DNA of 64,000 nt from Sycon ciliatum (taxonomy: Eukaryota; Porifera; Calcarea; Leucosolenida; Sycettidae). Position numbers and translations under genes: made by a program. The stretch is taken from positions 17,948,889 to 18,012,888 of the forward strand of contig NC_088653.1 in NCBI RefSeq assembly GCF_964019385.1, given 5' to 3'. Positions 2,195 through 51,625 of this stretch are shown piece by piece (the stretch's first letter is position 1; every line of letters starts with the position of its first letter). The notes under the pieces are model-generated. The model saw only the letters and a list, made by a program, of their open reading frames with translations, did not search any database and had not been told where the DNA came from.

Positions 2195-2456
2195 TGTTCC
2201 AACGTTAAAAGTCTCTGTAAGTTTGTATCCTTGGCGATGGTTTGGCCTGGAGAGCAGCATATAAAAGGTGCTTTTCAGGCACAATCTTCTTCATCCTACT
2301 CAAGCTCAACTGATGAGGGGTGAACTCCCCGAAACGCTGTGTATTGAGCAGGGAGTGGTGCTTTCTTGCAGGTTTGCTGAGTGAAAGGTGCGACGTGCTC
2401 CTTGTGCGCTAAGGATGGCAGTCGTGAGCCAGTCAAGTGTCAAGTTCGGCAAGAAG
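2195..2456 (+). repeat. Diverged solitary copy of the 478-bp retrozyme family
   Basis: Sequence from about 2,211 to 2,450 aligns with the plus-strand units of the 35.2-37.4 kb array, in the same order: the GTCTCTGTAAGTTTGTATCC segment, the CTGGAGAGCA segment, a TATA-like box (CATATAAAAG), the GGCACAATCTTC segment, the hammerhead, then the TTTCTTGCAGGTTTGC segment. Many point differences show that it is much older than the array. It lacks the remaining part of the 478-bp unit and is not tandem. Confidence 0.8.
2304..2349 (+). ncRNA. Type I hammerhead ribozyme (old 478-family copy)
   Basis: All parts of a hammerhead are present. Stem I pairs GCTCAA (2,304-2,309) with TTGAGC (2,344-2,349). The CTGATGA core box is 2,310-2,316, stem II is GGGG/CCCC with loop TGAACT, and GAA is at 2,331-2,333. 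A short stem III (A-C-G against U-G-U, one wobble pair) closes around CTG. The predicted cleavage is after A2343. Compared with the array copies the loop and stem III carry substitutions while core and stems are kept. Confidence 0.85.
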
Positions 2457-2512
2457 CATGTGTTCCTAGTTGGAACAACCAACTTCATAAGTTAAGTTAG
2501 TATGTATAATAA

Positions 2513-2862
2513 TGAAGTTGAACACACCACTGCAGCTGTACTTATGGTTGATAAAATAATATGGTGGTAAATACACACCTGGCAATATGGCGGTAAATAC
2601 ACGCCTGCCCACACACGCTCTCTAGGCTGCTATGTCTTCTCCAGCCTGCTATGTTGGATACCACCAACCATGCATCGACTAGGCGCCAGGCGCGAACTGA
2701 TGGTGGTGGTGGTGAGAAGGAGAGCTCTGTGCCAGAACTTTGCAGCCTAGATAGTGTGTGTGGGCAGGCGTGTATTTACCGCCGTATTGCCAGGTGTGTC
2801 TTTACCACCATATTATTTTATCAACCATAAGTACAGCTGCAGTGGTGTCTTCAACTTGATTC
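2513..2862. mobile_element. Foldback MITE with about 115-bp terminal inverted repeats
   Basis: The arms 2,513-2,628 and 2,745-2,862 are reverse complements with a few mismatches. Each arm includes CACCACTGCAGCTGTACTTA near the outer end and the GCCTGCCCACACAC segment near the inner end. The central part carries a GGTGGTGGTGGTGAGAAG tract. No open frame of note lies inside, so this is a non-autonomous hairpin-type element. Confidence 0.75.
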
Positions 2863-2908
2863 TCCCGAGTCAAGCTTCGTATGAAGACATCCTGATTCCA
2901 AGAAGAAG

Positions 2909-2956
2909 ATTGCCTGATGAGTCCAGCAGGGACGAAACGTAGGTCTACGTCGCAAT
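2909..2956 (+). ncRNA. Type I hammerhead ribozyme
   Basis: Stem I pairs ATTGC (2,909-2,913) with GCAAT (2,952-2,956). CTGATGA is 2,914-2,920. Stem II pairs GTCC with GGAC around loop AGCAG. GAAA is 2,934-2,937. Stem III pairs ACGTA with TACGT around tetraloop GGTC. The predicted cleavage follows C2951. All conserved core positions are intact. Sequence outside the core is unrelated to the 478-bp family, so this is a second lineage, of the kind reported in Penelope-like terminal repeats and in retrozymes. Confidence 0.9.
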
Positions 2957-2984
2957 AGAGCTATATCGTTGCTGTGTCGTCTTC

Positions 2985-3205
2985 TATGTGCCATGCGCTA
3001 CTTGATGTACCAGCCTGCTATGTCGGATACCGCCAACCATGCATCGACTAGGCGCCAAGCGCGAACTGATGGTGGTGGTGGTGAGAAGCAGAGCTCTGTG
3101 CCAGAACTTTGCAGCCTAGAGAGCGTGTGTGGGCAGGCGTGTATTTACCGCCATATTGCAAGGTGTGTCTTTACCACCATAATTATTATTTTATCAACCA
3201 TGTAT
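2985..3205 (+). repeat. Second, one-armed copy of the 2.5-kb foldback MITE
   Basis: Repeats the central and right-arm part of 2,640-2,830, including the GCATCGACTAGGCGCCA segment and the GTGTGTGGGCAGGCGTG arm, in the same orientation. The left arm is missing. The hammerhead at 2,909-2,956 lies between this copy and the complete one. Confidence 0.7.
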
Positions 3206-11880: not shown

Positions 11881-12275
11881 ACTCACACAAACATACGCTC
11901 ATCACAGAACAAACCACTGCAGTGACAGCCACAGCCAGGCTTGTGGCACTCTTGTCTCCAGATTGTAGACAAAAACTCCAGCAAAAACAACACATCATAG
12001 GGTGACAGCGTTGTGCAAGGAGGATCATACAGAAAAGTACTACAATCCACAGATCACCCGCACATATCACTCCTTGCAAAATTTATAACCTATGCTGTAC
12101 CCTGACCTATACTGTAGCAGCAATATTGAGAAATTTATCAGACAGAGTAACCCAGCACTGTTACTATCATGACTCCGGTGAGAAATCATACAAAGCTCCT
12201 CATTGGGAGGGAGGGTTGGAAACCAGCTGGCAATGCAAGGAAACCAAAGGATGCGGAACTGCGGCGCACCAGTAC

Positions 12276-12320
12276 GCCCAATACACAGTGTTTCTGATAA
12301 TTCGAAAACATCAGTTGAGC
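12276..12320 (-). pseudogene. Decayed hammerhead ribozyme
   Basis: On the minus strand stem I GCTCAA, then CTGATG followed by T instead of A, a degenerate stem II, GAAA, CACTGTGT and then ATTGGGC. The A9 core position and stem II pairing are lost and stem I has one mismatch, so self-cleavage is not expected. Confidence 0.7.
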
Positions 12321-12365
12321 TTTAGTACGCGGAGGAAGATTGTGCCTGCAGAGCACCACTTTTAC

Positions 12366-12651
12366 AGTCCATTCATTGGAAAATGGTACGCAAACATTTT
12401 GGTGTCTCCCGCGCATAGTTGTAGATATCGTGAAAACAACAGTACATCCTGCATTGTGTGAACTGTGCAATTACTCCTTGCCAAATTTGAGGCCAGGTTA
12501 TACAAAATCAGGACAGGTATGCCGTGGCAAAATGTACGGAAAAGCAGATCCCAAACCCAGATTTTTGAGATTAAAAGTGCGTTTTTATCCTCAATTCGGC
12601 GCAAATCGGACTTTCAAAAGCCTGCTGGACTGTTTCCGATGAATGGACGGT
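12366..12651. mobile_element. Short MITE inside the retrozyme relic
   Basis: Ends read GTCCATTCATTGGAAA on the left and TTTCCGATGAATGGAC on the right, an imperfect 16-bp inverted repeat. They interrupt the retrozyme sequence between the words CACTT and TAGTGC. No coding sequence. The target duplication is not clear. Confidence 0.5.
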
Positions 12652-12960
12652 AGTGCACTCCAGATACAAGGAAATAACCAGTCCCAATTCATCAGCCCGC
12701 TACTCCGGCTCCCCGCTGTATTGTCATATCTGTCCCCTTGGTTCTGTCATCATTCATCACCCCTACAAGTTCATGTACGTTCTCTGCTGCACTATGCACT
12801 TAAGTATAGAACATAAAGAAGGATACAAACTTGCAGTGACTCTCCGCTTCCTTTTCGGCAAACAACTCGTGAACACCAGATAGCAGCTAGTGTGATGCCT
12901 GTCGTGAGTCAGCCAAATGTCAAATCAAGTAGGCGGAAAGGGACAGGGTCAAGCGTGGGG

Positions 12961-13469
12961 AGCTTTAATGATCACACTAAATTTTCCTAAAATCCGAACC
13001 TCAAGGGATGTTTGGTTTGCTGCCCTCGTTCATTCCACTATGTTACACTAATACAGAATGATGAGACTAGGGCCCACAACCATACACACAGTACTCCGAC
13101 GGAAAAATGTACTGGCCTTGTTGTACCGTGCGAGAGACACTCACAATTACACTTAAGACTTCCGCGGTATTTTTGTGGCCACTAAATCTGGTAGAGTTAT
13201 ATACTGCTCAATTAATCTAAACAACTTAGGCGGAGAATTGGCTATTCCATACGTATCATCATATATATCATCAAAAGCTTGGGAGGCTTACGTGTCGTAG
13301 TGGGCCAAATATCATGCTGGGTAGCTAACTAGAACAGTGATTGAAAACAGAGGACTTGTAGATGTACTGGGTGTAAGGAATTATCGTTAGGTTATAATTG
13401 TTATTATTTTGCACTACGAGCGTGATTGTGGGCTCAAAAAATTATATATACTTCAGTAATTATAATTAT
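12961..13469. other. No gene recognised
   Basis: AT-rich unique sequence with short frames only. Confidence 0.5.
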
Positions 13470-13644
13470 ATTTCGCTCCTGCTCTTGTAGCAGTTGAGCA
13501 CTCTTGCGTGGGGTAGTGCCTTTGCTGTTTGCATTATGCAGAGCTCACTGACTAGTCAGTTTGAGCACTCTGGCAAGGTACGTTCGGGCCTGATTGGAAA
13601 TTTGTATTTCCATTGCTATCAGGTTCGGCCTCATTTTCTCTGTG

Positions 13645-13690
13645 CTGCGCTGATGAGTTCAAAAAGAACGAAACAGCATGCTGTCCGCAG
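13645..13690 (+). ncRNA. Type I hammerhead ribozyme, retrozyme unit 1
   Basis: Stem I pairs CTGCG (13,645-13,649) with CGCAG (13,686-13,690). CTGATGA follows at 13,650. Stem II pairs GTTC with GAAC around AAAAA. GAAA is 13,670-13,673. Stem III pairs ACAGC with GCTGT around AT. The predicted cleavage follows C13685. Every conserved core base is intact. Confidence 0.93.
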
Positions 13691-13872
13691 ATTGAGTATT
13701 TCGCTCCTGCTCTTGTAGCAGTTGAGCACTCTTGCGTGGGGTAGTGCCTTTGCTGTTTGCATTATGCAGAGCTCACTGACTAGTCAGTTTGAGCACTCTG
13801 GCAAGGTACGTTCGGGCCTGATTGGAAATTTTTATTTCCATTGCTATCAGGTTCGGCCTCATTTTCTCTGTG

Positions 13873-13918
13873 CTGCGCTGATGAGTTCAAAAAGAACGAA
13901 ACAGCATGCTGTCCGCAG
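13873..13918 (+). ncRNA. Type I hammerhead ribozyme, retrozyme unit 2
   Basis: Identical to the motif in unit 1, shifted by 228 bp, with predicted cleavage after position 13,913. Cleavage at both sites of a dimeric transcript would release a 228-nt linear RNA able to circularise. Confidence 0.93.
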
Positions 13919-13988
13919 ATTGATTATAATTATATATATATGCGCCTCCTTTGCACCATGGCTGGTAGCTCGGCCTATTTAGCTCGTA

Positions 13989-14162: not shown

Positions 14163-15109
14163 GGAGGTTCACTGCACGTCAAAGCAACGAACAGAAATTC
14201 TCAACACGAAATTGACAGGCTAACTGCCCTGTCGTAGTTAATAACCAAGTAATTGACAGGGAGGTTTTGGCACGTGTCAGACAAACGCACACGCGTGAGT
14301 GCAGTTTAGTCCTACCTGGTGAACAAGCTACTACTCGTCTGGCTCATTCAGTACAGGCAGTGGAGGCAATCCATAGGCTCTGAAACTGTGAAACAGTGTT
14401 GGTTTAGTGACACCTATCTGTCACGCAGCAGCGTAGTAGCCCCATGGTCTGCGCGAGAAACGGCGGCTGTTCAATACGGTGCATTTCCAGTGTCCCCTGT
14501 AATGAGAGATGAATGCGTAGAATATAATAGGATCTCCAGTGCTATCTCCGGTGCTAACTCGGTGCTACGCAACCTTGAACCTTCCAAGTTGGAAGGCTGT
14601 TGGTTTGCGCACTGGAGATGTGTTAGAGCTAGGTCTCAGGTCGCTGAATGTCTCAGTAGCCTGTCAGTTTTGTGCCCTGTTATCGACGGTTCTGATTCTT
14701 TATCATCTTGTTACATTCGTGGGTAGTTGCTGCATAACTCGTTCTCATGGGTTTCTTCTCTTGGTTTTGCATCTCATGTGATGAATGTTATAGCATAGCT
14801 TTGTGCAAGAGTGTCTGCGGGCTAAACCTAGTCAACACTGGATCGTGTCGAGTACTCCAGTAAATGTACTCTTGCGTCGGCTAGGGAGATGGTTAGTGAC
14901 TGTATTCAATAAGATATCGTTGGTGGTATGCGCATTCGTTCTTCTCTTTACCAAAGACCACTTCAATGGCAAACGTGAACTGCAGATGAGGGAGCACGGA
15001 GACCATGAATAGTGGGGTTGAGACTTCGTGAGCTCGGCTCGTCCGTTGTCTCGATTTCATGGCCGCCCTCGAAAGAGTGCTCAATGCACCGGGGTGCAGA
15101 GCTTCATAC
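14163..15109. other. No gene; holds the repeat shared with 7.4 kb at 14,570-14,700
   Basis: The only recognisable element is the CCTTCCAAG/TTGGAAGG repeat at 14,577-14,690. No coding domain or RNA was seen. Confidence 0.5.
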
Positions 15110-15907
15110 AAAAAGAATAGAATGGGATACGGAGCTTGGGTTGGCTGTGACTCAGAGTTTCTGGTGTACTAAAGGCGCACAACAATTCGGTCTTGCGGAA
15201 GAAGCAGAAAGATGATCAACAGAGAACAGAGAAAAGATGAAACTGCAGGGATAAAGTTAACTGCCCCATGCATGGAAACTGCCAGATCAAGTCAATCGTA
15301 TACAAGGCCAGCGTGACAGAAACCGGAAAAGACGAGCGAAAAGAGTACATCGGCCTAACGGAAATGACGTTCAAGAAGGGATACGACGGACACATGACGT
15401 CAATGAGGCATGAGCGAAAGGAGAAGAGTACCGAGTTGTCCAAGCACATCTGGGACATGAAGCGCAAGAATGCTGGGGACAGCATCAGTTGGTCAGTTGT
15501 CGCTCAAGCACCTGCATGCTCCAATGCCACCAAGCGCTGCCCTCTCTGTCTGCGTGAGAAGCTGGAGATCATGCATGCTGACAGAAGGGTGAACATCAAC
15601 AAGCGATCGGAGCTAGTGGCCAAGTGCAGACATGGGAACAAATTCTACCTATCTAACTTCACACCTCCAGTTACATTAGCCAGGATTACACCTGATATCT
15701 GGCGCTGATCTTGCACGTACATGCATAGAACCACCGCTTGACCTTATTTGCGCTTAAATTCTCTGATACCACTAGCACCTTACCACACTATATCAAGAAC
15801 ATTCATTGAGTTTTTGTAATCATTGCTGTCTGATGATCGCCACAGTACAGGCGTGACTCTGAGTCACCGCCAACCCAAGCTCCGTATCCCATTCTATTCT
15901 TTTTGGG
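15110..15907 (+). mobile_element. Penelope-like element fragment with inverted flanking repeats
   Basis: A fragment with the GIY-YIG region of a Penelope-like retroelement (15,241-15,708) is flanked by an inverted repeat of about 50 bp. At 15,110-15,165 the words AATAGAATGGGATACGGAGC and TTGGGTTGGC occur, and their reverse complement is at 15,851-15,907. Penelope-like elements commonly carry terminal repeats in inverted arrangement and 5' truncations. The core RT is absent. Confidence 0.65.
15241..15708 (+). pseudogene. GIY-YIG endonuclease domain of a Penelope-like element, 5'-truncated
   Basis: The frame opens just after a stop and starts with the linker NCRDKVNCPMHGNC. IVYKASV and EYIGLT follow as the GIY-YIG strands. 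Next come a helix with the RHERKEKSTELSKHIW segment, the zinc-like CPLCLREK motif, and RSELVAKCRHGNKFYL near the end. This order matches the C-terminal endonuclease of Penelope-like retroelements, which nicks the target for reverse transcription. The reverse transcriptase that should precede it is missing, so the piece cannot move by itself. The frame itself is undamaged over about 155 codons, so the insertion is not very old. Confidence 0.75.
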
Positions 15908-18912: not shown

Positions 18913-19240
18913 ATGCAGAGTGCCACTTGTTGCCGGTGCAACGGCAATGGCACCTGCGTTCGGTGTGAATGCAAGAAGGAGGGCCGCGAGTGTCAGAATT
19001 GTCTCCCGGGAAAAAAAGCAGATGCCGAAACAACAGCCCCTCGACATCCCAACCGTCACCCGTACCCGTAGCAGTGACAGATACAAGCACATGTACCGAC
19101 AACCAACCGTCATCCTCAGTAGCCACCCCGGAAGAGCTGGTAGCTGCTGCACTCACTGAGAAGCCCTGCTCACGGAATGCCGAAACCCGACATCCACAGG
19201 ACCACCAACGGCACCATGCTCACAACCTGGTCAGGTAGCT
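18913..19240 (+). pseudogene. Cys-rich N-terminal domain of the RLE retroelement, frameshifted
   Basis: A frame starting at ATG 18,913 gives a compact cysteine cluster: CCRC, then CVRCEC, then CQNC, ending in LPGKK. This pattern (several CxC pairs ending in CxxCLP) is common at the N-terminus of retroelement proteins in marine invertebrates and probably binds zinc and nucleic acid. After a run of seven A at 19,011 the sensible continuation (SRCRNNSPSTSQPSP, then TPEELVAAALTE) lies in another frame until 19,240. The main ORF is in the third frame. At least two indels therefore separate this domain from the polymerase, so the copy is broken here unless frameshifting or an assembly error is involved. 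Confidence 0.65.
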
Positions 19241-19282
19241 GCCACCACCGCCAGTGACGTCAATAGGGTTGACCTGCATGCC

Positions 19283-22200
19283 ATGCCTGTGTCGAGCTCT
19301 CAACAACTAGCATGGGACATACTGGACCAGCAGCATGCAGCAAGCACCAGTGCCACAGATCGAGTTGACAGTAATGACGACACCCTAGGGCATGATGCAG
19401 AGTTGCTGGCCAACCTAGCACAAAGCCAATCTGTTACTGAGGAGCCCCAAGCACCGGATCCAGCCCAGCTCCCCCCATATCTGGAAGCAAATTGCAACAT
19501 CACAGTTGGGACCCACGATTCAAACTCGTCTGCACAAATTGTAGATGCTGCATATGAAGAAGTGGTGCATTTTAGGCCTAACCTACTTTTCCTCCCTTCC
19601 GGGTCAGTCGGATCAAAGTTTGTGAAGCTCCTTGCAACACTCTACAAACAGTTTGGTGACAAATGTGCAGGTGAAGGCAAGTCTCTGAAAGCAGCTGCAG
19701 TGGCCACTCAGCTGCTCCTGCAATGTCCGCACCGCTCTGCAACCAGACAGGAGCACATCACCTGTCTACAGCGCCGCATGCTACTCTGGGAGGAAGGCAA
19801 CATCAACGAACTGATGATAGAAGCCCGGACTATCCAATCTCTAGTGCAATCTTCCACAGCCTTCCAAGGCAAGGCTCAGCCGCAGGACCAAGCTCGTACC
19901 TTTGCCAACCTCATCACCACAGGCAAAACCAGTGCTGCAATCCGCACGTTGTCTGAAGACCAGAAGGGCGGAGTACACTCCGTGGGCACCACCATCAATG
20001 GCCAGACAGTTCTGGACATTCTCAAGAGCAAACACCCTCCCGCGGCACCAGCAAATGCGACGGCGATGATTACAGGAGATGTCCCTCCGTCACCGCATCC
20101 AGTTCTCTACTCCAGCATCACCCGGGAGGCCATACGCGAGGCAGCCCTCCACACACAAGGTGCTGCAGGACCCTCTGGACTAGACGCTGCGTCGTGGCGC
20201 AGAATGTGCACAGCTTTTCACGGAGCATCTGATGACCTCTGCGATTCACTGGCCAGCTGTGCCCGCCGCATCGCCTCGTCCTATGTTGACCCCACAGCAT
20301 TGGAAGCTTTCTTGGCCAGCCGCCTCATACCACTAGATAAACAACCGGGTGTCAGACCGATTGGGATCGGAGAAGTGGCCCGTCGCATCATCGGGAAAGC
20401 CATCCTGCGATGCGCCTCATCTTCAATACAGAAGTCAGCTGGCTGCCTACAGCTATGTGCGGGTCAAGAGTGTGGCATAGAAGCAGCAATACATGCTATG
20501 CAAACAGCATTTCAGGAAAACGAGGCGGAAGGCGTTCTGTTTGCAGATGCGTCAAACGCATTTAACTCCCTTAACCGTGCTGTCTCACTGCACAATATCC
20601 AGCACACCTGCCCCACCATTGCTCCGGCACTGATCAACAGCTACCGCAGCCCGACTCGGCTGTTTGTGGATGGTGAATGTCTCCTGTCTTGTGAAGGCAC
20701 CACGCAGGGAGATCCACTAGCCATGGCTATGTATGCCCTGGCAACCGTTCCTCTCATCCAGGAAGTGTCTCAGAGCGGAGCACTCCAGTCGTGGTATGCA
20801 GACGACTCCACTGCCGCTTCCACCATTCGAAAGCTGCATCACTGGTGGTCACTGCTTAAGCAACGAGGCCCAGCATATGGGTACTTCCCCAATGATGCCA
20901 AGTCGGTTCTTGTTGTGAAGCCGGAGCATCTTCAGGAAGCAGAATCCCTGTTTGCTGACACGGCAGTCCAGATTCGCACGGATGGCTGGCGGCATCTCGG
21001 TGCAGTACTTGGGTCTCCCGAATTCTGCAAGCAATATGTCACAGAGAAGGTAGAGACATGGGCGCTAGAGGTTGGACGACTGGCTGACTTCGCCACCACT
21101 CAGCCACAAGCGGCATACGCTGCTTTTATTCATGGCCTCCGCCACAAGTGGTCGTTTGTGGCCCGGACGGTCCCAGGCATCAGCGGACTGCTAGACCCGC
21201 TGGAGCACTCCATCCGACAGCGGTTCATCCCTGCTCTAACCAGTCGCCCCGCACCTGGTGACGAAGAGCGCGCCATACTGTCCCTCCCGTGTCGAGAAGG
21301 TGGTCTTGGTCTCATTGACCCGAGGTCTTTGACGGACCAATACAATATGTCTGTCGCTGTCACCAACATCCTCGTGAGCCGGATACTGGACCAAGACACC
21401 AACATGGACGAAGTGCCCACCACCATCCATGCTGCCAAGCTAACTGCAGCAGCAGCAACCAGGAGAGCCTCTCGAGACCAAGCCAGTCAGCTCCTGGCCA
21501 CATGTGATGTGCCCACCCAGCGAACCCTGGGGATGGCGGCCGAGAAAGGAGCGTCCAACTGGCTCACTTGCCGGCCCCTGAAGCAGTTCGGGTTTGTCCT
21601 CCACAAAGGCGCCTTCAGAGACGCACTCTGTCTGCGGTTCGGCTGGGTCCCTCACCGCCTGCCATCCACTTGTGTGTGTGGCAAGGCATTTAACACCAGC
21701 CATGCTCTTTCGTGCCCAACTGGTGGATACCCGGCTCTCCGTCATAACACGATCCGCGACCTGACAGCCGACCTACTGCGTGAAGTGGCAACGGATGTGA
21801 AGATAGAACCTCCTCTGCAGCCCCTGGAAGGTGAAAGGCTCCGGTATCGCTCTGCCATCTTGGAAGATGGCGCTCGTCTTGATGTGGCGGCATCTGGTGT
21901 CTGGGGAAGTCGTTTTGAGCGCACGTTCTGTGATGTTCGGGTTTTTAACCCTCATGCGCGCTCGAACACTTCCTCAACTCCCGCGTCCACCTATGCCAAG
22001 CACGTACAGCAGAAGAGAAGGGCCTACGAAGAACGCGTCAGGGAGGTGGAGCATGCTTCCTTTCTCCCACTGGTATTCAGTGCATCTGGTGGGTGCGGCA
22101 AGGTAGCCCACGCTTTCCTGAAGCGTCTTGTCCATATGGTTTCGGAGAAGCGGCATGAACCCTACTCCTCCGTCATGTCCTGGATCCGCTCTCTTGTCTC

Positions 22201-22324
22201 CTTTGCTTTGGTTCGATCCTGCAACATGAGCCTCCGTGGTCACCGTGCTTCTCCCTACCGCAGTCGTTTGGATGCTGCCACTCCTGTTGTGCTGGCAGTC
22301 AACGACTGTCAGTTGCGTGACTGA
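19283..22324 (+). CDS. Reverse transcriptase with C-terminal restriction-like endonuclease (RLE-type non-LTR retrotransposon)
   Basis: A 1013-aa uninterrupted frame. RT motifs occur in order: PIGIGEVARRIIGK (about residues 357-370), motif A LFADASNAFNSLNR (about 419), motif B TTQGDPLAMAMY (about 472) and motif C WYADDSTAA (about 504). A thumb region follows. Near residue 795 a CxC...HALSC zinc knuckle precedes RHN (about 819) and a catalytic core with RLDVAA (about 864) and CDVRVFN (about 882), the layout of the PD-(D/E)XK endonuclease in R2/CRE-type elements. It would nick target DNA and prime reverse transcription there. The first ATG is used for convenience; the open frame continues upstream to 19,160 and the Cys-rich start lies in other frames. 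The 3' end carries AATAAA repeats at 22,430-22,485. It inserted in a CAAA-rich stretch of a dispersed repeat. No separate ORF1 was seen. Confidence 0.9.
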   Translation: MPVSSSQQLAWDILDQQHAASTSATDRVDSNDDTLGHDAELLANLAQSQSVTEEPQAPDPAQLPPYLEANCNITVGTHDSNSSAQIVDAAYEEVVHFRPNLLFLPSGSVGSKFVKLLATLYKQFGDKCAGEGKSLKAAAVATQLLLQCPHRSATRQEHITCLQRRMLLWEEGNINELMIEARTIQSLVQSSTAFQGKAQPQDQARTFANLITTGKTSAAIRTLSEDQKGGVHSVGTTINGQTVLDILKSKHPPAAPANATAMITGDVPPSPHPVLYSSITREAIREAALHTQGAAGPSGLDAASWRRMCTAFHGASDDLCDSLASCARRIASSYVDPTALEAFLASRLIPLDKQPGVRPIGIGEVARRIIGKAILRCASSSIQKSAGCLQLCAGQECGIEAAIHAMQTAFQENEAEGVLFADASNAFNSLNRAVSLHNIQHTCPTIAPALINSYRSPTRLFVDGECLLSCEGTTQGDPLAMAMYALATVPLIQEVSQSGALQSWYADDSTAASTIRKLHHWWSLLKQRGPAYGYFPNDAKSVLVVKPEHLQEAESLFADTAVQIRTDGWRHLGAVLGSPEFCKQYVTEKVETWALEVGRLADFATTQPQAAYAAFIHGLRHKWSFVARTVPGISGLLDPLEHSIRQRFIPALTSRPAPGDEERAILSLPCREGGLGLIDPRSLTDQYNMSVAVTNILVSRILDQDTNMDEVPTTIHAAKLTAAAATRRASRDQASQLLATCDVPTQRTLGMAAEKGASNWLTCRPLKQFGFVLHKGAFRDALCLRFGWVPHRLPSTCVCGKAFNTSHALSCPTGGYPALRHNTIRDLTADLLREVATDVKIEPPLQPLEGERLRYRSAILEDGARLDVAASGVWGSRFERTFCDVRVFNPHARSNTSSTPASTYAKHVQQKRRAYEERVREVEHASFLPLVFSASGGCGKVAHAFLKRLVHMVSEKRHEPYSSVMSWIRSLVSFALVRSCNMSLRGHRASPYRSRLDAATPVVLAVNDCQLRD

Positions 22325-33095: not shown

Positions 33096-33363
33096 GTACT
33101 TCGAAGTATTTTAATTTTGTATTATCGGTTTGTTTTGTTTGCTATGATTTCTTGGTTTGGTTTTTCAACCGGCTTTTCCCAATATTTAAATTATAATTTG
33201 GTGCACTTTTAGTACTACCTGGTTTATGATTTCCTTTTTTCTTAAATAACCTACCAACCTACGTGGAGATAATAATTTTAATATAGCTATGAATAGGATG
33301 AAGGCCGCAGACATCACGCAACTACGTTACTTGTTTGACATGTATTACTGTGTATTTTATAAC
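33096..33363. other. No gene recognised
   Basis: AT-rich sequence between the microsatellite and the inverted structure. Confidence 0.5.
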
Positions 33364-34055
33364 AAAAATATTATTGAAAACCCAGAATCGATTTTCTCGT
33401 TCCTATCATCAGTGGGAAAAAACGGAACTGAGGATACAACCAAAGAAACTGAAGTTAAGTACTGTAAATAGAAAGGTGTTAGAAATAACATCAAGATACA
33501 AGTGCAATAAAACCACTAGAGGAAACGCAAAAAAGGTAACAAGATTACATAACCAAAGGCGAGAAGGCACTGAACGAAGTGTCAACCTACGAATAAAACT
33601 TCAGTGCAACAATGTGCTCTTTCTGCTTACGCAAAACTGGCTGATGAATACGTATACAAACTGCCTCTAGGACTTTCAACTGTTGGACATAATGCGCACG
33701 ACACAGTACTGAAAAATGAGAGTCATCATACACACCAAGACAGTCAGGACGAGATAACAAGTGTAAATACACAGCTGACTTCTTACGATCACCACATTCA
33801 TCCGCCTCATCTCGCTCCTTCCCACCCGACTCCTCCTCGTCCATCTCATCGTCATCTTCCTCGTTCTGCACTTGTATCTTGATGTTATTTCTAACACCTT
33901 TCTATTTGTAAGAAATGGTTTGCTCCCCACACCGGAGCTCGCGCTATTCCGCCGACTTTACTTGACACTTGACTGACTCACGACTGCCATCCAGAGCACA
34001 CGAGAAGTCCATCGAACCTTCGACTCGGCAAACCTGCAAGAAAGCACCACTCCCT

Positions 34056-34101
34056 GCTCAATACACAGTGTTTCGGGGAATTCACCCCTCATCAGTTGAG
34101 C
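34056..34101 (-). ncRNA. Type I hammerhead ribozyme, minus array unit 1
   Basis: Read on the minus strand: stem I GCTCAA/TTGAGC, core CTGATGA, stem II GGGG/CCCC with loop TGAATT, GAAA, stem III ACA/TGT with loop CTG, predicted cleavage after the A of GTA. All conserved positions are kept. Confidence 0.92.
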
Positions 34102-34533
34102 TTGAGTAGGCTGAGGAAGATTGTGCCTGAAGAGCACCACTTATATAGTGCTCTCCAGGCACAAACATCACCAGGGATACAAACTTACAGAGACGCTCCG
34201 TTTCAAGCCCGACAAACACCTCGTGAACACCAGATAGCAGCGTGAGTCAGTGTCGCTCCTGGACGGTGAGACAGACGTCGAGGACCCTCGGTCATTCGCA
34301 ACGCTGTCACCTCCAAACCAACTAGTCGCAAGCCCGCGCTGGGCACAACAGTACGAAGTAGTGGTTGCGACTTCGGCGATGATTTGTAAGAAATGGTTTG
34401 CTCCCCACACCGGAGCTCGCGCTATTCCGCCGACTTTACTTGACACTTGACTGACTCACGACTGCCATCCAGAGCACACGAGAAGTCCATCGAACCTTCG
34501 ACTCGGCAAACCTGCAAGAAAGCACCACTCCCT

Positions 34534-34579
34534 GCTCAATACACAGTGTTTCGGGGAATTCACCCCTCATCAGTTGAGC
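34534..34579 (-). ncRNA. Type I hammerhead ribozyme, minus array unit 2
   Basis: Same 46-bp motif as the unit at 34,056, displaced by 478 bp. Confidence 0.92.
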
Positions 34580-35011
34580 TTGAGTAGGCTGAGGAAGATT
34601 GTGCCTGAAGAGCACCACTTATATAGTGCTCTCCAGGCACAAACATCACCAGGGATACAAACTTACAGAGACGCTCCGTTTCAAGCCCGACAAACACCTC
34701 GTGAACACCAGATAGCAGCGTGAGTCAGTGTCGCTCCTGGACGGTGAGACAGACGTCGAGGACCCTCGGTCATTCGCAACGCTGTCACCTCCAAACCAAC
34801 TAGTCGCAAGCCCGCGCTGGGCACAACAGTACGAAGTAGTGGTTGCGACTTCGGCGATGATTTGTAAGAAATGGTTTGCTCCCCACACCGGAGCTCGCGC
34901 TATTCCGCCGACTTTACTTGACACTTGACTGACTCACGACTGCCATCCAGAGCACACGAGAAGTCCATCGAACCTTCGACTCGGCAAACCTGCAAGAAAA
35001 CACCACTCCCT

Positions 35012-35057
35012 GCTCAATACACAGTGTTTCGGGGAATTCACCCCTCATCAGTTGAGC
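35012..35057 (-). ncRNA. Type I hammerhead ribozyme, minus array unit 3
   Basis: Same motif, intact, in the unit next to the inversion centre. The unit carries substitutions outside the ribozyme only. Confidence 0.92.
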
Positions 35058-35226
35058 TTGAGTAGGCTGAGGAAGATTGTGCCTGAAGAGCACCACTTAT
35101 ATAGTGCTCTCCAGGCACAAACATCACCACGGATACAAACTTACAGAGACGCTCCGTTTCAAGCCCGACAAACACCTCGTGAACACCAGATAGCAGCGTG
35201 AGTCAGTGTCGCTCCTGGACGGTGAC

Positions 35227-35234
35227 TATATAAG
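35227..35234 (+). promoter_or_regulatory. TATA-like box of the retrozyme unit
   Basis: TATATAAG recurs in every array unit about 45 bp before the hammerhead, and as CATATAAAAG in the old copy at 2,259-2,268. A start site about 30 bp downstream would place the 5' end just ahead of the ribozyme. This is inference from position and conservation only. Confidence 0.4.
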
Positions 35235-35272
35235 TGGTGCTCTTCAGGCACAATCTTCCTCAGCCTACTCAA

Positions 35273-35318
35273 GCTCAACTGATGAGGGGTGAATTCCCCG
35301 AAACACTGTGTATTGAGC
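35273..35318 (+). ncRNA. Type I hammerhead ribozyme, plus array unit 1
   Basis: Stem I GCTCAA (35,273-35,278) pairs with TTGAGC (35,313-35,318). CTGATGA is 35,279-35,285. Stem II is GGGG/CCCC and GAAA is 35,300-35,303. Predicted cleavage follows A35312. The TATATAAG box at 35,227-35,234 lies about 45 bp upstream. Confidence 0.93.
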
Positions 35319-35750
35319 AGGGAGTGGTGCTTTCTTGCAGGTTTGCCGAGTCGAAGGTTCGATGGACTTCTCGTGTGCTCTGGATGGCAGTCGTGAGTCA
35401 GTCAAGTGTCAAGTAAAGTCGGCGGAATAGCGCGAGCTCCGATGTGGGGAGCAAACCATTTCTTACAAATCATCGCCGAAGTCGCAACCACTACTTCGTA
35501 CTGTTGTGCCCAGCGCGGGCTTGCGACTAGTTGGTTTGGAGGTGACAGCGTTGCGAATGACCGAGGGTCCTCGACGTCTGTCTCACCGTCCAGGAGCGAC
35601 ACTGACTCACGCTGCTATCTGGTGTTCACGAGGTGTTTGTCGGGCTTGAAACGGAGCGTCTCTGTAAGTTTGTATCCCTGGTGATGTTTGTGCCTGGAGA
35701 GCACTATATAAGTGGTGCTCTTCAGGCACAATCTTCCTCAGCCTACTCAA

Positions 35751-35796
35751 GCTCAACTGATGAGGGGTGAATTCCCCGAAACACTGTGTATTGAGC
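35751..35796 (+). ncRNA. Type I hammerhead ribozyme, plus array unit 2
   Basis: Identical to unit 1, offset 478 bp. Confidence 0.93.
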
Positions 35797-36228
35797 AGGG
35801 AGTGGTGCTTTCTTGCAGGTTTGCCGAGTCGAAGGTTCGATGGACTTCTCGTGTGCTCTGGATGGCAGTCGTGAGTCAGTCAAGTGTCAAGTAAAGTCGG
35901 CGGAATAGCGCGAGCTCCGGTGTGGGGAGCAAACCATTTCTTACAAATCATCGCCGAAGTCGCAACCACTACTTCGTACTGTTGTGCCCAGCGCGGGCTT
36001 GCGACTAGTTGGTTTGGAGGTGACAGCGTTGCGAATGACCGAGGGTCCTCGACGTCTGTCTCACCGTCCAGGAGCGACACTGACTCACGCTGCTATCTGG
36101 TGTTCACGAGGTGTTTGTCGGGCTTGAAACGGAGCGTCTCTGTAAGTTTGTATCCCTGGTGATGTTTGTGCCTGGAGAGCACTATATAAGTGGTGCTCTT
36201 CAGGCACAATCTTCCTCAGCCTACTCAA

Positions 36229-36274
36229 GCTCAACTGATGAGGGGTGAATTCCCCGAAACACTGTGTATTGAGC
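36229..36274 (+). ncRNA. Type I hammerhead ribozyme, plus array unit 3
   Basis: Identical to unit 1, offset 956 bp. Confidence 0.93.
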
Positions 36275-36706
36275 AGGGAGTGGTGCTTTCTTGCAGGTTT
36301 GCCGAGTCGAAGGTTCGATGGACTTCTCGTGTGCTCTGGATGGCAGTCGTGAGTCAGTCAAGTGTCAAGTAAAGTCGGCGGAATAGCGCGAGCTCCGGTG
36401 TGGGGAGCAAACCATTTCTTACAAATCATCGCCGAAGTCGCAACCACTACTTCGTACTGTTGTGCCCAGCGCGGGCTTGCGACTAGTTGGTTTGGAGGTG
36501 ACAGCGTTGCGAATGACCGAGGGTCCTCGACGTCTGTCTCACCGTCCAGGAGCGACACTGACTCACGCTGCTATCTGGTGTTCACGAGGTGTTTGTCGGG
36601 CTTGAAACGGAGCGTCTCTGTAAGTTTGTATCCCTGGTGATGTTTGTGCCTGGAGAGCACTATATAAGTGGTGCTCTTCAGGCACAATCTTCCTCAGCCT
36701 ACTCAA

Positions 36707-36752
36707 GCTCAACTGATGAGGGGTGAATTCCCCGAAACACTGTGTATTGAGC
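36707..36752 (+). ncRNA. Type I hammerhead ribozyme, plus array unit 4
   Basis: Identical to unit 1, offset 1434 bp. Confidence 0.93.
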
Positions 36753-37184
36753 AGGGAGTGGTGCTTTCTTGCAGGTTTGCCGAGTCGAAGGTTCGATGGA
36801 CTTCTCGTGTGCTCTGGATGGCAGTCGTGAGTCAGTCAAGTGTCAAGTAAAGTCGGCGGAATAGCGCGAGCTCCGGTGTGGGGAGCAAACCATTTCTTAC
36901 AAATCATCGCCGAAGTCGCAACCACTACTTCGTACTGTTGTGCCCAGCGCGGGCTTGCGACTAGTTGGTTTGGAGGTGACAGCGTTGCGAATGACCGAGG
37001 GTCCTCGACGTCTGTCTCACCGTCCAGGAGCGACACTGACTCACGCTGCTATCTGGTGTTCACGAGGTGTTTGTCGGGCTTGAAACGGAGCGTCTCTGTA
37101 AGTTTGTATCCCTGGTGATGTTTGTGCCTGGAGAGCACTATATAAGTGGTGCTCTTCAGGCACAATCTTCCTCAGCCTACTCAA

Positions 37185-37230
37185 GCTCAACTGATGAGGG
37201 GTGAATTCCCCGAAACACTGTGTATTGAGC
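37185..37230 (+). ncRNA. Type I hammerhead ribozyme, plus array unit 5
   Basis: Identical to unit 1, offset 1912 bp. The array ends about 180 bp later, inside the unit. Confidence 0.93.
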
Positions 37231-37669
37231 AGGGAGTGGTGCTTTCTTGCAGGTTTGCCGAGTCGAAGGTTCGATGGACTTCTCGTGTGCTCTGGATGGC
37301 AGTCGTGAGTCAGTCAAGTGTCAAGTAAAGTCGGCGGAATAGCGCGAGCTCCGGTGTGGGGAGCAAACCATTTCTTACAAATCATCGCCGAAGTCGCAAC
37401 CACTACTTCGTACCTTTCTATTTACAGTACTTAACTTCAGTTTCTTTGGTTGTATCCTTAGTTCCGTATTTTTCCCACTGATGATAGGAACGAGAAAATC
37501 GATTCTGGGTTTTCAATAATATTTTTTTCTTAATTTTGTATTTAGCGCTTTCGGGTGTTATCATTTTTATTTTCTTATTTCAGCACAGAGTTATTATTTC
37601 AGTCACTGGTTCTGGGTTTGGACAAAAAAAGAGTTCTATAAAAATAGTAAAAATAAATGCATGGTTCGC

Positions 37670-44254: not shown

Positions 44255-44995
44255 ATGTTGTAACAGTGTACCCATTTGCTAGGCCAGCTTGGTGCGTTCC
44301 CGTGGAATTTGCCGGGGCACCATATTTGTAACGGCGATTCCGTTTGCTGTTGCCGTGGCCGTATTTGTCACATGATTGGTGCATTCCCGTTGAAGTTGCC
44401 CAGCCGGGCACCACGTTTGTCAGTTGTGCCTGTTTGAAGTTGCCAGGCCAGCTTGTATTGGTGCGTTCCCGTTGAGTTTGCCGGGGCACCATGTTTGAAA
44501 CGGCGTTCCCGTCTGCTGTTGCCGGGGCCGTGTTTGTATTGGTGCATTCCCGTTGAAGTTGCCCAGCGGAGCACCACATTTGTCAGTTGTGCCGCTTTAC
44601 AGTTGCCAGGCCAGCTTGCATTGGTGTGTTCCCGTTGAGTTTTCCGGTCACCATGTTTATAACGGCTTTCCCGTTCGCTGTTGCCGGGGCCGTGTTTGCA
44701 TTGGTGCACTCACGCTGAAGTTGCCGAGCGGGGCACCACGTTTGTCAGTTGTGCCTGTTTGAAGCTACCAGGCCAGCTTGTATTAGTGCGCTCCCGTTGA
44801 GTTTACCGGGGCACCATATTTGTAACGGTGTTCCCGTTTGCTGATGCCGGGGCTGTGTTTGTATTGGTGCATTCCCGTTGACGTTGCCCAGCGGAGCACC
44901 ATGTTTGTCAATTGCGCCTGTTTGAAGTTGCCAGGCCAATCCTGTAACGCGCACCCGTTTGCTGTTGCCGGGTGACATGTTTGTCAATTGTGCTT
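44255..44995. repeat. About 160-bp tandem repeat inside the DIRS element
   Basis: The word CCAGGCCAGCTTG or variants recurs at about 44,280, 44,449, 44,605, 44,769 and 44,932. Each period has three related sub-blocks with TTCCCGTTG and CACCATGTTTGT. The minus-strand frames read a matching repeated peptide (TGTHQYKLAWQLQ, HGPGNS), which follows from the repeat. Confidence 0.85.
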
Positions 44996-48623: not shown

Positions 48624-49230
48624 TCGAACGTGAAATCTCACGGCCAAATGGTCCTCGCGTTGCAGCGTGATACTTCAACACGACAGAGCTAGAGCACCAA
48701 CTCACAGCGATAAAAGCCGTATCAGCGCACTTTTTTCTCACGTTCGAAATGGAAAAAAAAACGTGAAGTGTAAACTCCCCATTACTTGTAACTTAGGGGC
48801 GAGCAACACATGGCCATGGGTTCGTAGATTTAGATCTGCTCCTTATGATTTTTACAGCAACGAACCCGCCTTCATTCACGTCATCTAGAAGGTATGATTT
48901 ACACACAGTCATGTACTTGTACTCCGCGATCCGAAGTAGGGTAATTCTATGGTGCATTTCTACGACTAGTTTGCACGTATGGATGCAGTGAAAGGGATTG
49001 TCGGTCTGCAACCAATTTTTGGTGGGTCTGAGCTCCTCACTTCTGGAGCTGCTTCTGCGCCTTGATCGTAGAGGGTGGTGGCGTTCCTGCGGATGCGGAA
49101 AACTCGGCCTCCAGCGGAGTGTCACGCGAACCGCGATATTTTTGCACGTACATGTACTACTAGTAGTAGTATTGCATGACATGACTGCTGCCTTTGTCTT
49201 TGTAGGAAACTATTGAACGGAAACGAGACA
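48624..49230 (+). repeat. R1 family, copy 3 (right part)
   Basis: Continues R1 from GAACGTGAAATCTCACGGCC, and matches 30,870-31,140 and then 28,930-29,220. It shows R1 uninterrupted at the sites where the LTR element (near 48,898) and Harbinger-like element sit in the other copies. Confidence 0.75.
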
Positions 49231-49254
49231 GTCGTATCGACTTCGAGTTTGATT

Positions 49255-49345
49255 TTAAAGTTGTTTGCTCACCATTTCGAAGCTCGCGACTTTACTTGTC
49301 TGACTCACGACTGACATTCAGAGCACTAGAGAAGTCCGCCGAACC
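49255..49345 (-). repeat. Fragment of the 478-bp retrozyme family
   Basis: Plus-strand words TTTGCTCACCATTTCG, GACTTTACTTG, CTGACTCACGACTG and CGAACCTTCGACTCGG follow the order of the minus array. No hammerhead is included. Confidence 0.7.
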
Positions 49346-49848
49346 TTCGACTCGGTCACGGACACTTGAATGGTCTCTTCAGGGCAATGTTCTGCTTATG
49401 GTTGTGGGAAAGTTTTGAAGCAGTTTATGAAACTGAAGAAAGTTGAGATTTCTTCCAAAACAACAAAAGTTGCGAAAAAACGTGGCAAGCATCTTTGGGA
49501 AAGGGCTTGGCACACGGGGGTACTCATGGATGCGGCTAGTGGAGTTACTCGGCTCTTGCGCCAGTGGTTGCGAGATTTATCAGCTCACCCCCACCATATC
49601 ATGCCCACTGTTCGGCGCTGCATCGGCCGCTAGGCTAGGGTTAGCAACCGTCGTTAGCAACCGTCGTTAGTTCCCTTCGCGAATTCGGCAAGGGACACGA
49701 TATTTTACTCTCTTCTTTTGACCAACGCTTCCTGGTACTGCTCTGAAGAGTGGCCCACGGGGGAAACCATATGTGACAGTATGTGTGCGTGTGCCAGTGA
49801 GCTGATGTGCTTATTATCATTATTATTCTGTTCGCTCTGTGCTAAAAG
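49346..49848. other. Intron 1 of the receptor gene, no other feature
   Basis: Unique sequence. GTTAGCAACCGTC is repeated twice at 49,639-49,668. Confidence 0.5.
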
Positions 49849-51447: not shown

Positions 51448-51534
51448 GTAAACTACATGTATCGTCATACTTCAGTTCCGTATTTTCCAGAGTACATGTA
51501 CATGTACAAGGCGCACTCAGATTTTTTGTAGAAA

Positions 51535-51625
51535 GGGTCTGCTCCGATCGTCGGAGCTCGCGCTTTCTGCCGACACTTGATTGACTAACAACTGCATCTG
51601 GAGCACACGAGAAGCCAGTTCGTAC
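51535..51625 (-). repeat. Fragment of the 478-bp retrozyme family
   Basis: Plus-strand words GGTCTGCTCC, GGAGCTCGCGC, GCCGACACTTGA and GGAGCACACGAGAAG follow the minus-array order. No hammerhead. Confidence 0.6.

Follow-up and report, generated by a model that had tools for sequence, protein, structure and literature searches.

A head-to-head hammerhead retrozyme array in the sponge Sycon ciliatum, inserted with the anatomy of a Penelope-like element

Introduction

Among the described systems closest to the one considered here are the metazoan retrozymes of the non-long terminal repeat (non-LTR) kind. In the available parts of PMC7229834 they appear as tandem repeats, from dimers to large multimers, with units of ~170-400 nt and a GC content below 50%, and a circular template is proposed for them. 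The enzyme that moves animal retrozymes is left open there; Penelope-like elements (PLEs) are named as a strong candidate on the grounds of shared type I hammerheads, tandem occurrence and co-existence with retrozymes. The subject of this paper is an array of 478-bp hammerhead units, arranged in two head-to-head sets, in a 64-kb stretch of Sycon ciliatum DNA (C12:17948889-18012888; this whole stretch is called the window). With a probability of about 0.78, a non-autonomous hammerhead retrozyme inserted here once, by target-primed reverse transcription of the two-sided Penelope type.

As for PLEs, two sources, each represented by the available part of its text, describe features that recur below. 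In the bdelloid rotifer Adineta vaga, Penelopes have head-to-head inverted pseudo-LTRs (pLTRs), duplications of 8-10 bp and a 31-bp tail on one of the pLTRs (PMC3846280). Poseidon, a purified PLE from Anolis carolinensis, cuts and extends both strands in vitro and prefers 5'-ATT-3'; reverse transcription begins within an AC-rich stem-loop, at two neighbouring internal sites with the tail sequence between them, and top and bottom strand showed no difference in start site in the assay (PMC11167929).

The 478-bp array

The unit has a GC content of 53%, and the array amounts to ~3.5 kb with only three substitutions among its units, at 35000, 35130 and 35442. None of the three is more than 225 bp from the head-to-head junction, and they might be errors of joining or gap filling. 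In unit coordinates, the antisense arm extends from 246 (outer 3' end, site P) to 359 (inner 5' end), and the sense arm from 1 (inner 5' end) to 277 (outer 3' end, site D). The two outer ends are 31 nt apart in the unit and flank an AC-rich hairpin (Table 1).

A descriptor of the type I hammerhead (stem I, CUGANGA, stem II, GAA, stem III, UH) has 13 hits in the window, whereas 100 dinucleotide shuffles have none. Eight belong to the array, one per unit, with cores at 34095, 34573 and 35051 on the minus strand and at 35279, 35757, 36235, 36713 and 37191 on the plus strand; the stem limits of the first were taken from the sequence. A first-pass annotation, made from the letters alone, had proposed just this layout (eight hammerhead units of 478 bp, three on minus and five on plus, head-to-head), and both the descriptor and the mapping of the arms (2.77 versus 4.58 units, junction at 35225) bear it out. 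The remaining five motifs fall in an older copy of the same family, family 1 (2310), in two further retrozyme families, G (2914) and E (13650 and 13878), and in a single related copy (13995). Rfam gave no match up to E = 10 for the family-1 hammerhead in 33300-37600 and no hammerhead at the gathering score across the window; its sub-threshold hammerhead matches are in family E (best E = 3.2e-5) and family G (E = 0.025). Folded as a circle, the 478-nt unit has a predicted energy of -201.6 kcal/mol (z = -6.4 versus 100 shuffles). The unit is taken as a non-autonomous retrozyme, and hence is not classed as a PLE.

Table 1. Coordinates of the array, its host repeat and related features in the window
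Feature	Position	Strand	Remarks
Long arm of older inverted-arm (foldback-like) repeat hosting the insertion	33364..33866	-	matches rejoined right arm, 143 nt
Inner piece of host repeat's right arm, detached by the insertion	33867..33907	+	100% complementary to 33466-33506
Outer piece of host repeat's right arm	37414..37526	+	outer end sharp at 37526; 98.3% to left arm
Target-site duplication, left copy (ACCTTTCTATTT)	33896..33907	+	12/12 identical to right copy
Target-site duplication, right copy	37412..37423	+	first two bases fit unit 276-277 too
Antisense arm of retrozyme insertion	33904..35225	-	1322 bp, 2.77 units
5'-to-5' (head-to-head) junction	35225	.	1-nt overlap of arms
Sense arm of retrozyme insertion	35225..37413	+	2189 bp, 4.58 units
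AC-rich hairpin, unit 253-274, between sites P and D	37389..37410 (last copy)	+	
Type I hammerhead 1	34049..34107	-	descriptor; predicted cleavage after 34062
Type I hammerhead 2	34527..34585	-	descriptor; predicted cleavage after 34540
Type I hammerhead 3	35005..35063	-	descriptor; predicted cleavage after 35018
Type I hammerhead 4	35267..35325	+	descriptor; predicted cleavage after 35312
Type I hammerhead 5	35745..35803	+	descriptor; predicted cleavage after 35790
Type I hammerhead 6	36223..36281	+	descriptor; predicted cleavage after 36268
Type I hammerhead 7	36701..36759	+	descriptor; predicted cleavage after 36746
Type I hammerhead 8	37179..37237	+	descriptor; predicted cleavage after 37224
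Older family-1 copy A	2208..2488	+	3' end near unit 240; hammerhead intact by descriptor
Older family-1 copy B	12266..12964	.	antisense 12374-12266 and 12901-12802, sense 12894-12964; head-to-head
Older family-1 copy C	49223..49355	-	3' end at unit 275
Older family-1 copy D	51520..51625	-	3' end at unit 246
Family G copy, head-to-head	2511..3201	.	antisense 2511-2635, sense from ~2636-2641 to 3201; core 2914
Family E, 228-bp units, direct dimer, contrast case	13469..13927	+	
Penelope-like fragment, ORF (open reading frame) 15241-15708 between inverted arms	15109..15905	.	antisense arm longer

An insertion within an older repeat

Does the array belong to the inverted repeat that surrounds it? 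The outer arms, 33364-33477 and 37412-37526, are 98.3% identical over 115 columns, so the inverted arms noticed in the first-pass annotation are real; the array, however, lies inside the right arm and not between the two. When the array is excised together with one copy of the duplication, the right arm continues into 33867-33907 and matches the left arm over 143 nt. If the flanks are joined without the array alone, one extra 10-bp copy remains, which is the target duplication. The 12-bp duplication ACCTTTCTATTT adjoins both ends of the array, and none of 400 random pairs reaches its score. The array is a separate insertion within one arm of an older inverted-arm repeat.

The host repeat (33364-33866 and 37414-37526) is an abundant family: two query pieces found 1900 and 1489 candidate places in the genome, 40 of which were scored for each. 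With the window itself set aside, each of the 39 further matches beginning at query position 1 ends at 112-114 (equal to 37526-37528), and three other rows of the outer-piece search cover 33-112, 108-172 and 109-153. Fourteen of the scored places pair matches on opposite strands, plus always before minus, five of them of equal and nine of unequal length, so that a DNA transposon with fixed terminal inverted repeats is a possible reading of the outer arms. The outer repeat has no significant target duplication (27 of 400 random pairs score as high), and a by-eye comparison of its listed places with the listed retrozyme loci gave no coincidence apart from the window.

A foldback or terminal inverted repeat (TIR) DNA transposon carrying the ribozymes was considered and rejected, because the array splits one arm and has its own target duplication. 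The related suggestion of a foldback element that captured ribozyme units is likewise contradicted by the rejoined arm, the target duplication, the older and abundant outer repeat, and the separate places listed for repeat and retrozyme, the window excepted.

Two fixed ends across the genome

The 538-Mb assembly was searched, and part of the candidate places, in families 1 and G the best-matching ones, were scored: 40 of 241 for family 1 (at least 186 matches), 40 of 1638 for family G (208 matches; representative unit 352 nt), 40 of 386 for family E (115 matches) and 150 of 2593 for the Penelope-like ORF of the window. For family 1, 39 loci were fetched and the window was added as the fortieth; three (L010, L012 and L039) were dropped as likely duplicates of L009, L011 and L038, whose arm ends and lengths they share. 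Rows L001-L008, which overlap loci already counted, were excluded, as were extra pieces at L028 (39 bp), L046 (527 bp, antisense) and L047 (44 and 223 bp). For family G, 20 fetched loci were joined by the window copy, and the antisense pieces of L063 (374 bp, cut by the end of the locus) and L071 (101 bp) and a nested duplicate match in L075 were left aside. Sense-then-antisense neighbours at L018, L035, L047 and L071 have target sequence between them and were counted separately (L071 was dropped); "all head-to-head" below means that no arms are joined directly tail-to-tail.

In family 1, the 37 loci retained hold 42 insertions, 30 of them two-armed and all antisense-then-sense, i.e., head-to-head. 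Their arms end at two places: 35 ends are at P (unit 237-249) and 33 at D (unit 272-290), making 68 of 72, with four elsewhere. The two-armed copies pair these ends as D/P in 13 cases, P/D in 12, P/P in one and D/D in none, with four other; both ends are classifiable in 26, and 25 of these have one of each site. The sole P/P copy, L027, was tallied as two-armed, but TTA repeats separate its arms and it has the look of two independent insertions. Target duplications of at least 10 bp accompany 34 of the 42 insertions versus 30 of 238 mismatched flank pairs, which match because many targets are (ATT)n.

Family G repeats the pattern. It has 22 insertions (20 distinct), of which 16 are two-armed, all head-to-head; P lies at unit 175-189 and D at 215-229, 36 of 38 ends fit (34 of 36 distinct), and every classifiable pair (14 of 14) has one of each. 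Duplications, mostly of 11-14 bp and non-repetitive, are found in 14 of the 20 distinct insertions versus 3 of 192 mismatched pairs. L064, L069 and L077 have common flanks and a common target duplication; they are therefore one insertion later duplicated with its surroundings, and are tallied as one in the distinct counts.

Both two-armed families have two fixed outer 3' sites about 31 (or about 38) nt apart, and when they are pooled, one of each site is found in 39 of 40 copies (p = 3.7e-11 versus 50:50). The check for inversion at other loci thus has a positive outcome (30 of 42 mapped insertions in family 1 and 16 of 22 in family G are two-armed), and the idea of a new retrozyme structure, put forward from the single locus, holds in that copies with two arms outnumber those with one among the insertions mapped for two families.

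This pairing of ends bears on two other routes to a head-to-head product. In twin priming of the long interspersed element (LINE, L1) type, reverse transcription begins at a first nick made by a LINE enzyme, and the other target strand, once nicked, invades the RNA at an internal position. The resulting inversion has the same final topology, with similar target duplications, and the window has a reverse transcriptase ORF (RVT_1, 19160-22324) that may be other than that of a PLE. On this route one 3' end is constant and the internal point of priming varies. The two outer ends seen here are both constant, each with a site of its own (39 of 40), and the PLEs of the genome have the same kind of ends; because the second site is fixed, twin priming is rather unlikely. 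The other route is snap-back self-priming, in which the first complementary DNA (cDNA) folds back and copies itself; it was proposed, on an antisense template, for rotifer Penelopes (available part of PMC3846280). It would account for the head-to-head form and for the closeness of family-1 inner breakpoints, which resembles that at palindromic junctions: of the 30 copies, 10 have them no more than 25 nt apart, where 3.2 would be expected, and 15 no more than 50 nt apart, where 6.3 would be. Family G shows little such excess (2 of 16, 2.3 expected; 6 of 16, 4.6 expected). Moreover, snap-back predicts a repeated outer end (P/P or D/D) or a truncation and not the other site, and because of the one-of-each rule it appears quite improbable.

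Junctions and arms

The arms meet closely. In family 1 they overlap by 1-13 nt in 20 of 30 copies and are 0-3 nt apart in seven; overlaps of this size occur in 29 of 46 two-armed copies of both families, and arms that overlap or lie no more than 3 nt apart in 27 of 30 copies of family 1 and 13 of 16 of family G. Could each pair be two adjacent insertions, or a direct array partly inverted after insertion? Adjacent insertions do exist, at L018, L035 and L047 (AAT or TTA repeats between them) and at L071 (~38 bp beyond the target duplication), and the arms of L027 are separated by TTA repeats. Against both are the closeness of the arms, a topology shared by all 30 and all 16 two-armed copies, the P/D pairing in 39 of 40 classifiable copies and the lack of mixed strands in family E, which leave these explanations very improbable.

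Inner breakpoints of family 1 are scattered, none of the 60 falling within 5 nt of the hammerhead cut, and therefore the cDNAs do not end at the cleaved RNA end. The longest arms reach 7.9 units. Among family-1 variants, 61 are fixed in all units, 237 are private to one unit and 15 occur in several but not all units; the corresponding numbers in family G are 41, 116 and 3. Multi-unit arms built of one monomer type therefore suggest a circular template.

Family E, with direct arrays, is the contrast. Its matches form 37 clusters, 30 with at least two listed matches (some of these relying on listed 50-bp pieces), and none of the 37 is mixed-strand; therefore, not every ribozyme array in the assembly is inverted. 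Four copies were examined, that of the window and three fetched ones; their 3' ends are identical and their 5' ends variable, with duplications of 13-15 bp, exact in three of four; that of the window copy (13 bp) is AT-rich, and 14 of 400 random pairs score as high. At one locus, L081, a 51-bp antisense piece lies beyond the array and its duplication, at a distance of 190 bp.

A palindromic read or an assembly error could also produce inverted arms. The arms found here are unequal, their breakpoints and junctions differ and do not coincide, the copies are spread over many contigs and mostly have their own target duplications, and family E in the same assembly has no mixed-strand array. An artefact is unlikely in the extreme.

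Penelope-like elements of the same genome

The window also has a fragment with an ORF (15241-15708) between inverted arms, which by its motifs resembles the GIY-YIG end of PLEs; Pfam and PDB gave no useful match for it. Among the matches listed for this ORF, eight pairs lie within 3 kb, seven of them minus-then-plus, one on the same strand and none plus-then-minus. In all six two-armed copies examined (the window copy, L054, L055, L078, L079 and L080) one arm is longer than the other by a tail. Five copies have duplications at tail offsets of 64, 58, 64, 59 and 86 nt, the 86-nt case (L055) being in simple repeats, with scores of 13-20 versus at most 8 in 30 mismatched pairs; the window copy has none. 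The sequence ATTGAGCACTCT is common to all six tails, four of which are AC-rich at the end. From the longer arm and the duplications at the tail offset, it follows that PLEs here likewise show two ends, one per arm.

The two-armed retrozymes have the same anatomy as the PLEs of this genome, with head-to-head arms and a tail on one of them. Four traits of Penelope-like insertion are found in the retrozymes: head-to-head arms, a target duplication, a one-arm tail and two start sites. The guess that the locus is Penelope-related, one of several offered at first, is thereby strengthened. As a separate observation, the family E copy at 13469-13927 carries TTGAGCACTCTTGCG, which is close to ATTGAGCACTCT of the PLE tails, and a common binding signal is possible.

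Proposed mechanism

How might such an insertion arise? The unit would be transcribed, cut by its type I hammerheads to 478-nt monomers and circularised. A PLE reverse transcriptase with its GIY-YIG endonuclease would bind this RNA at a hairpin element and make a staggered double cut, often in AT-rich DNA, with 3' overhangs of ~10-14 nt, a stagger recorded in the target duplications. One target strand would then prime at P (unit 241-249) and the other at D (unit 272-277), either side of the AC-rich hairpin, in keeping with the observed ends. Each cDNA would make one or more turns of the circle, or would follow a multimer, leaving the multi-unit arms; the arms differ in copy number because the two cDNAs extend independently. 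The two cDNA ends would finally be joined 5'-to-5' and the gap filled, a step to which the junction pattern points. An RNA with one start site, such as that of family E, would yield ordinary one-sided direct arrays.

A more specific and tentative version, which may well prove wrong, is that a PLE enzyme dimer copies one and the same RNA circle simultaneously from the two cut strands, with one subunit per start site and the two polymerases following each other; whether a head-to-head pair or a direct array results would then depend on how many start sites the RNA has, two in families 1 and G and one in E.

Several points weigh against two-sided Penelope-type insertion, or temper it. Scoring the best matches favours young, long copies. 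A single arm is present in 12 of 42 insertions of family 1 and 6 of 22 of family G, and one end lies elsewhere in 4 of 30 two-armed copies of family 1 (L016, L017, L032 and L046) and 2 of 16 of family G (L059 and L061); the outer ends of the older copy B fit neither start site. Start sites matching those of the retrozymes in sequence were not identified in any PLE. The one-of-each rule is not predicted by the available part of PMC11167929, because no such difference between the strands was seen in that assay. The partner arm is the closest, or tied closest, in only 10 of 20 insertions of family 1 and 6 of 14 of family G, and differences between arms (0.80% and 1.75%) are only moderately lower than those between insertions (1.35% and 2.43%), so that copying of both arms from one RNA molecule, as judged from sequence, is weakly supported. 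As for the circle, which we infer, an uncleaved multimer from a homogeneous array fits too.

One of these exceptions deserves a remark. In L046 (770-1540 and 3210-3250) the antisense arm is seemingly split by ~211 bp, its outer piece reaches unit 235, and TTTCACAATA is present at both outer flanks. The excluded 527-bp antisense piece is probably the outer part of this arm, and L046, although tallied as an exception, may follow the two-site rule.

Other features of the window

The window holds older copies as well. Copy D has a candidate 14-bp target duplication with two mismatches, a score reached by 4 of 400 random pairs; copies A, B and C and the PLE fragment have no significant one in the random-pair test, made on the window alone. 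The duplication of the family G copy (10 of 11) was matched by 1 of 400 random pairs in a first scan and had a low score in a later one. Within copy B, ~440 bp of unrelated sequence (12369-12809) interrupts the antisense arm near the unit hairpin, possibly another insertion. At 19160-22324 a single long stop-free frame encodes 1054 aa and includes a reverse transcriptase domain (Pfam RVT_1, E = 9e-9), and a tandem array with a period of ~163 bp (4 copies, 85% matches) lies at 44289-44938. Viral contigs scanned with a 21-base hammerhead pattern gave no matches.

Comparison with known systems

In the literature at hand, mostly papers outside subscription and in part only (including PMC8490949, PMC4918200, PMC7761336 and PMC8969392), no inverted retrozyme array was found, nor a statement of a one-site-per-strand rule. 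The retrozyme is of a known kind and its insertion form is new; the principal finding is the link to PLEs. That retrozymes and PLEs of one genome share an insertion fingerprint is a more direct kind of evidence on the enzyme that moves retrozymes, and the form of the insertion hints at how their RNAs get copied into DNA. The one-site-per-strand rule offers a simple reading of the "tail" on a single PLE terminus and a testable model for the use of both target strands, while two-site and one-site retrozymes in one genome are a natural experiment.

Compared with the metazoan non-LTR retrozymes, as far as the available parts of PMC7229834 describe them, the array shares short tandem units with one type I hammerhead each, an RNA predicted to be highly self-paired, and target duplications longer than 4 bp (here 12 bp, and 34 of 42 in family 1). 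It differs in its unit of 478 nt and GC content of 53%, outside a range that is typical rather than defining, and in that the commoner form here is two head-to-head arrays with two fixed 3' ends; families G (352 nt) and E (228 nt) are within the size range.

With the PLEs of Adineta vaga (PMC3846280, in the part available) it has in common head-to-head inverted terminal copies, target duplications, a tail on one copy and in-trans use on foreign sequence. Those elements are coding and have pseudo-LTRs, whereas the RNA copied here is a ribozyme unit, up to ~8 per arm. Like Poseidon, as the accessible text of PMC11167929 presents it, the retrozyme of this window has two adjacent sites by an AC-rich hairpin, its insertion would involve cutting and extension of both DNA strands, and many family-1 targets are (ATT)n; unlike in the Poseidon assay, each strand uses its own site in 39 of 40 two-armed insertions.

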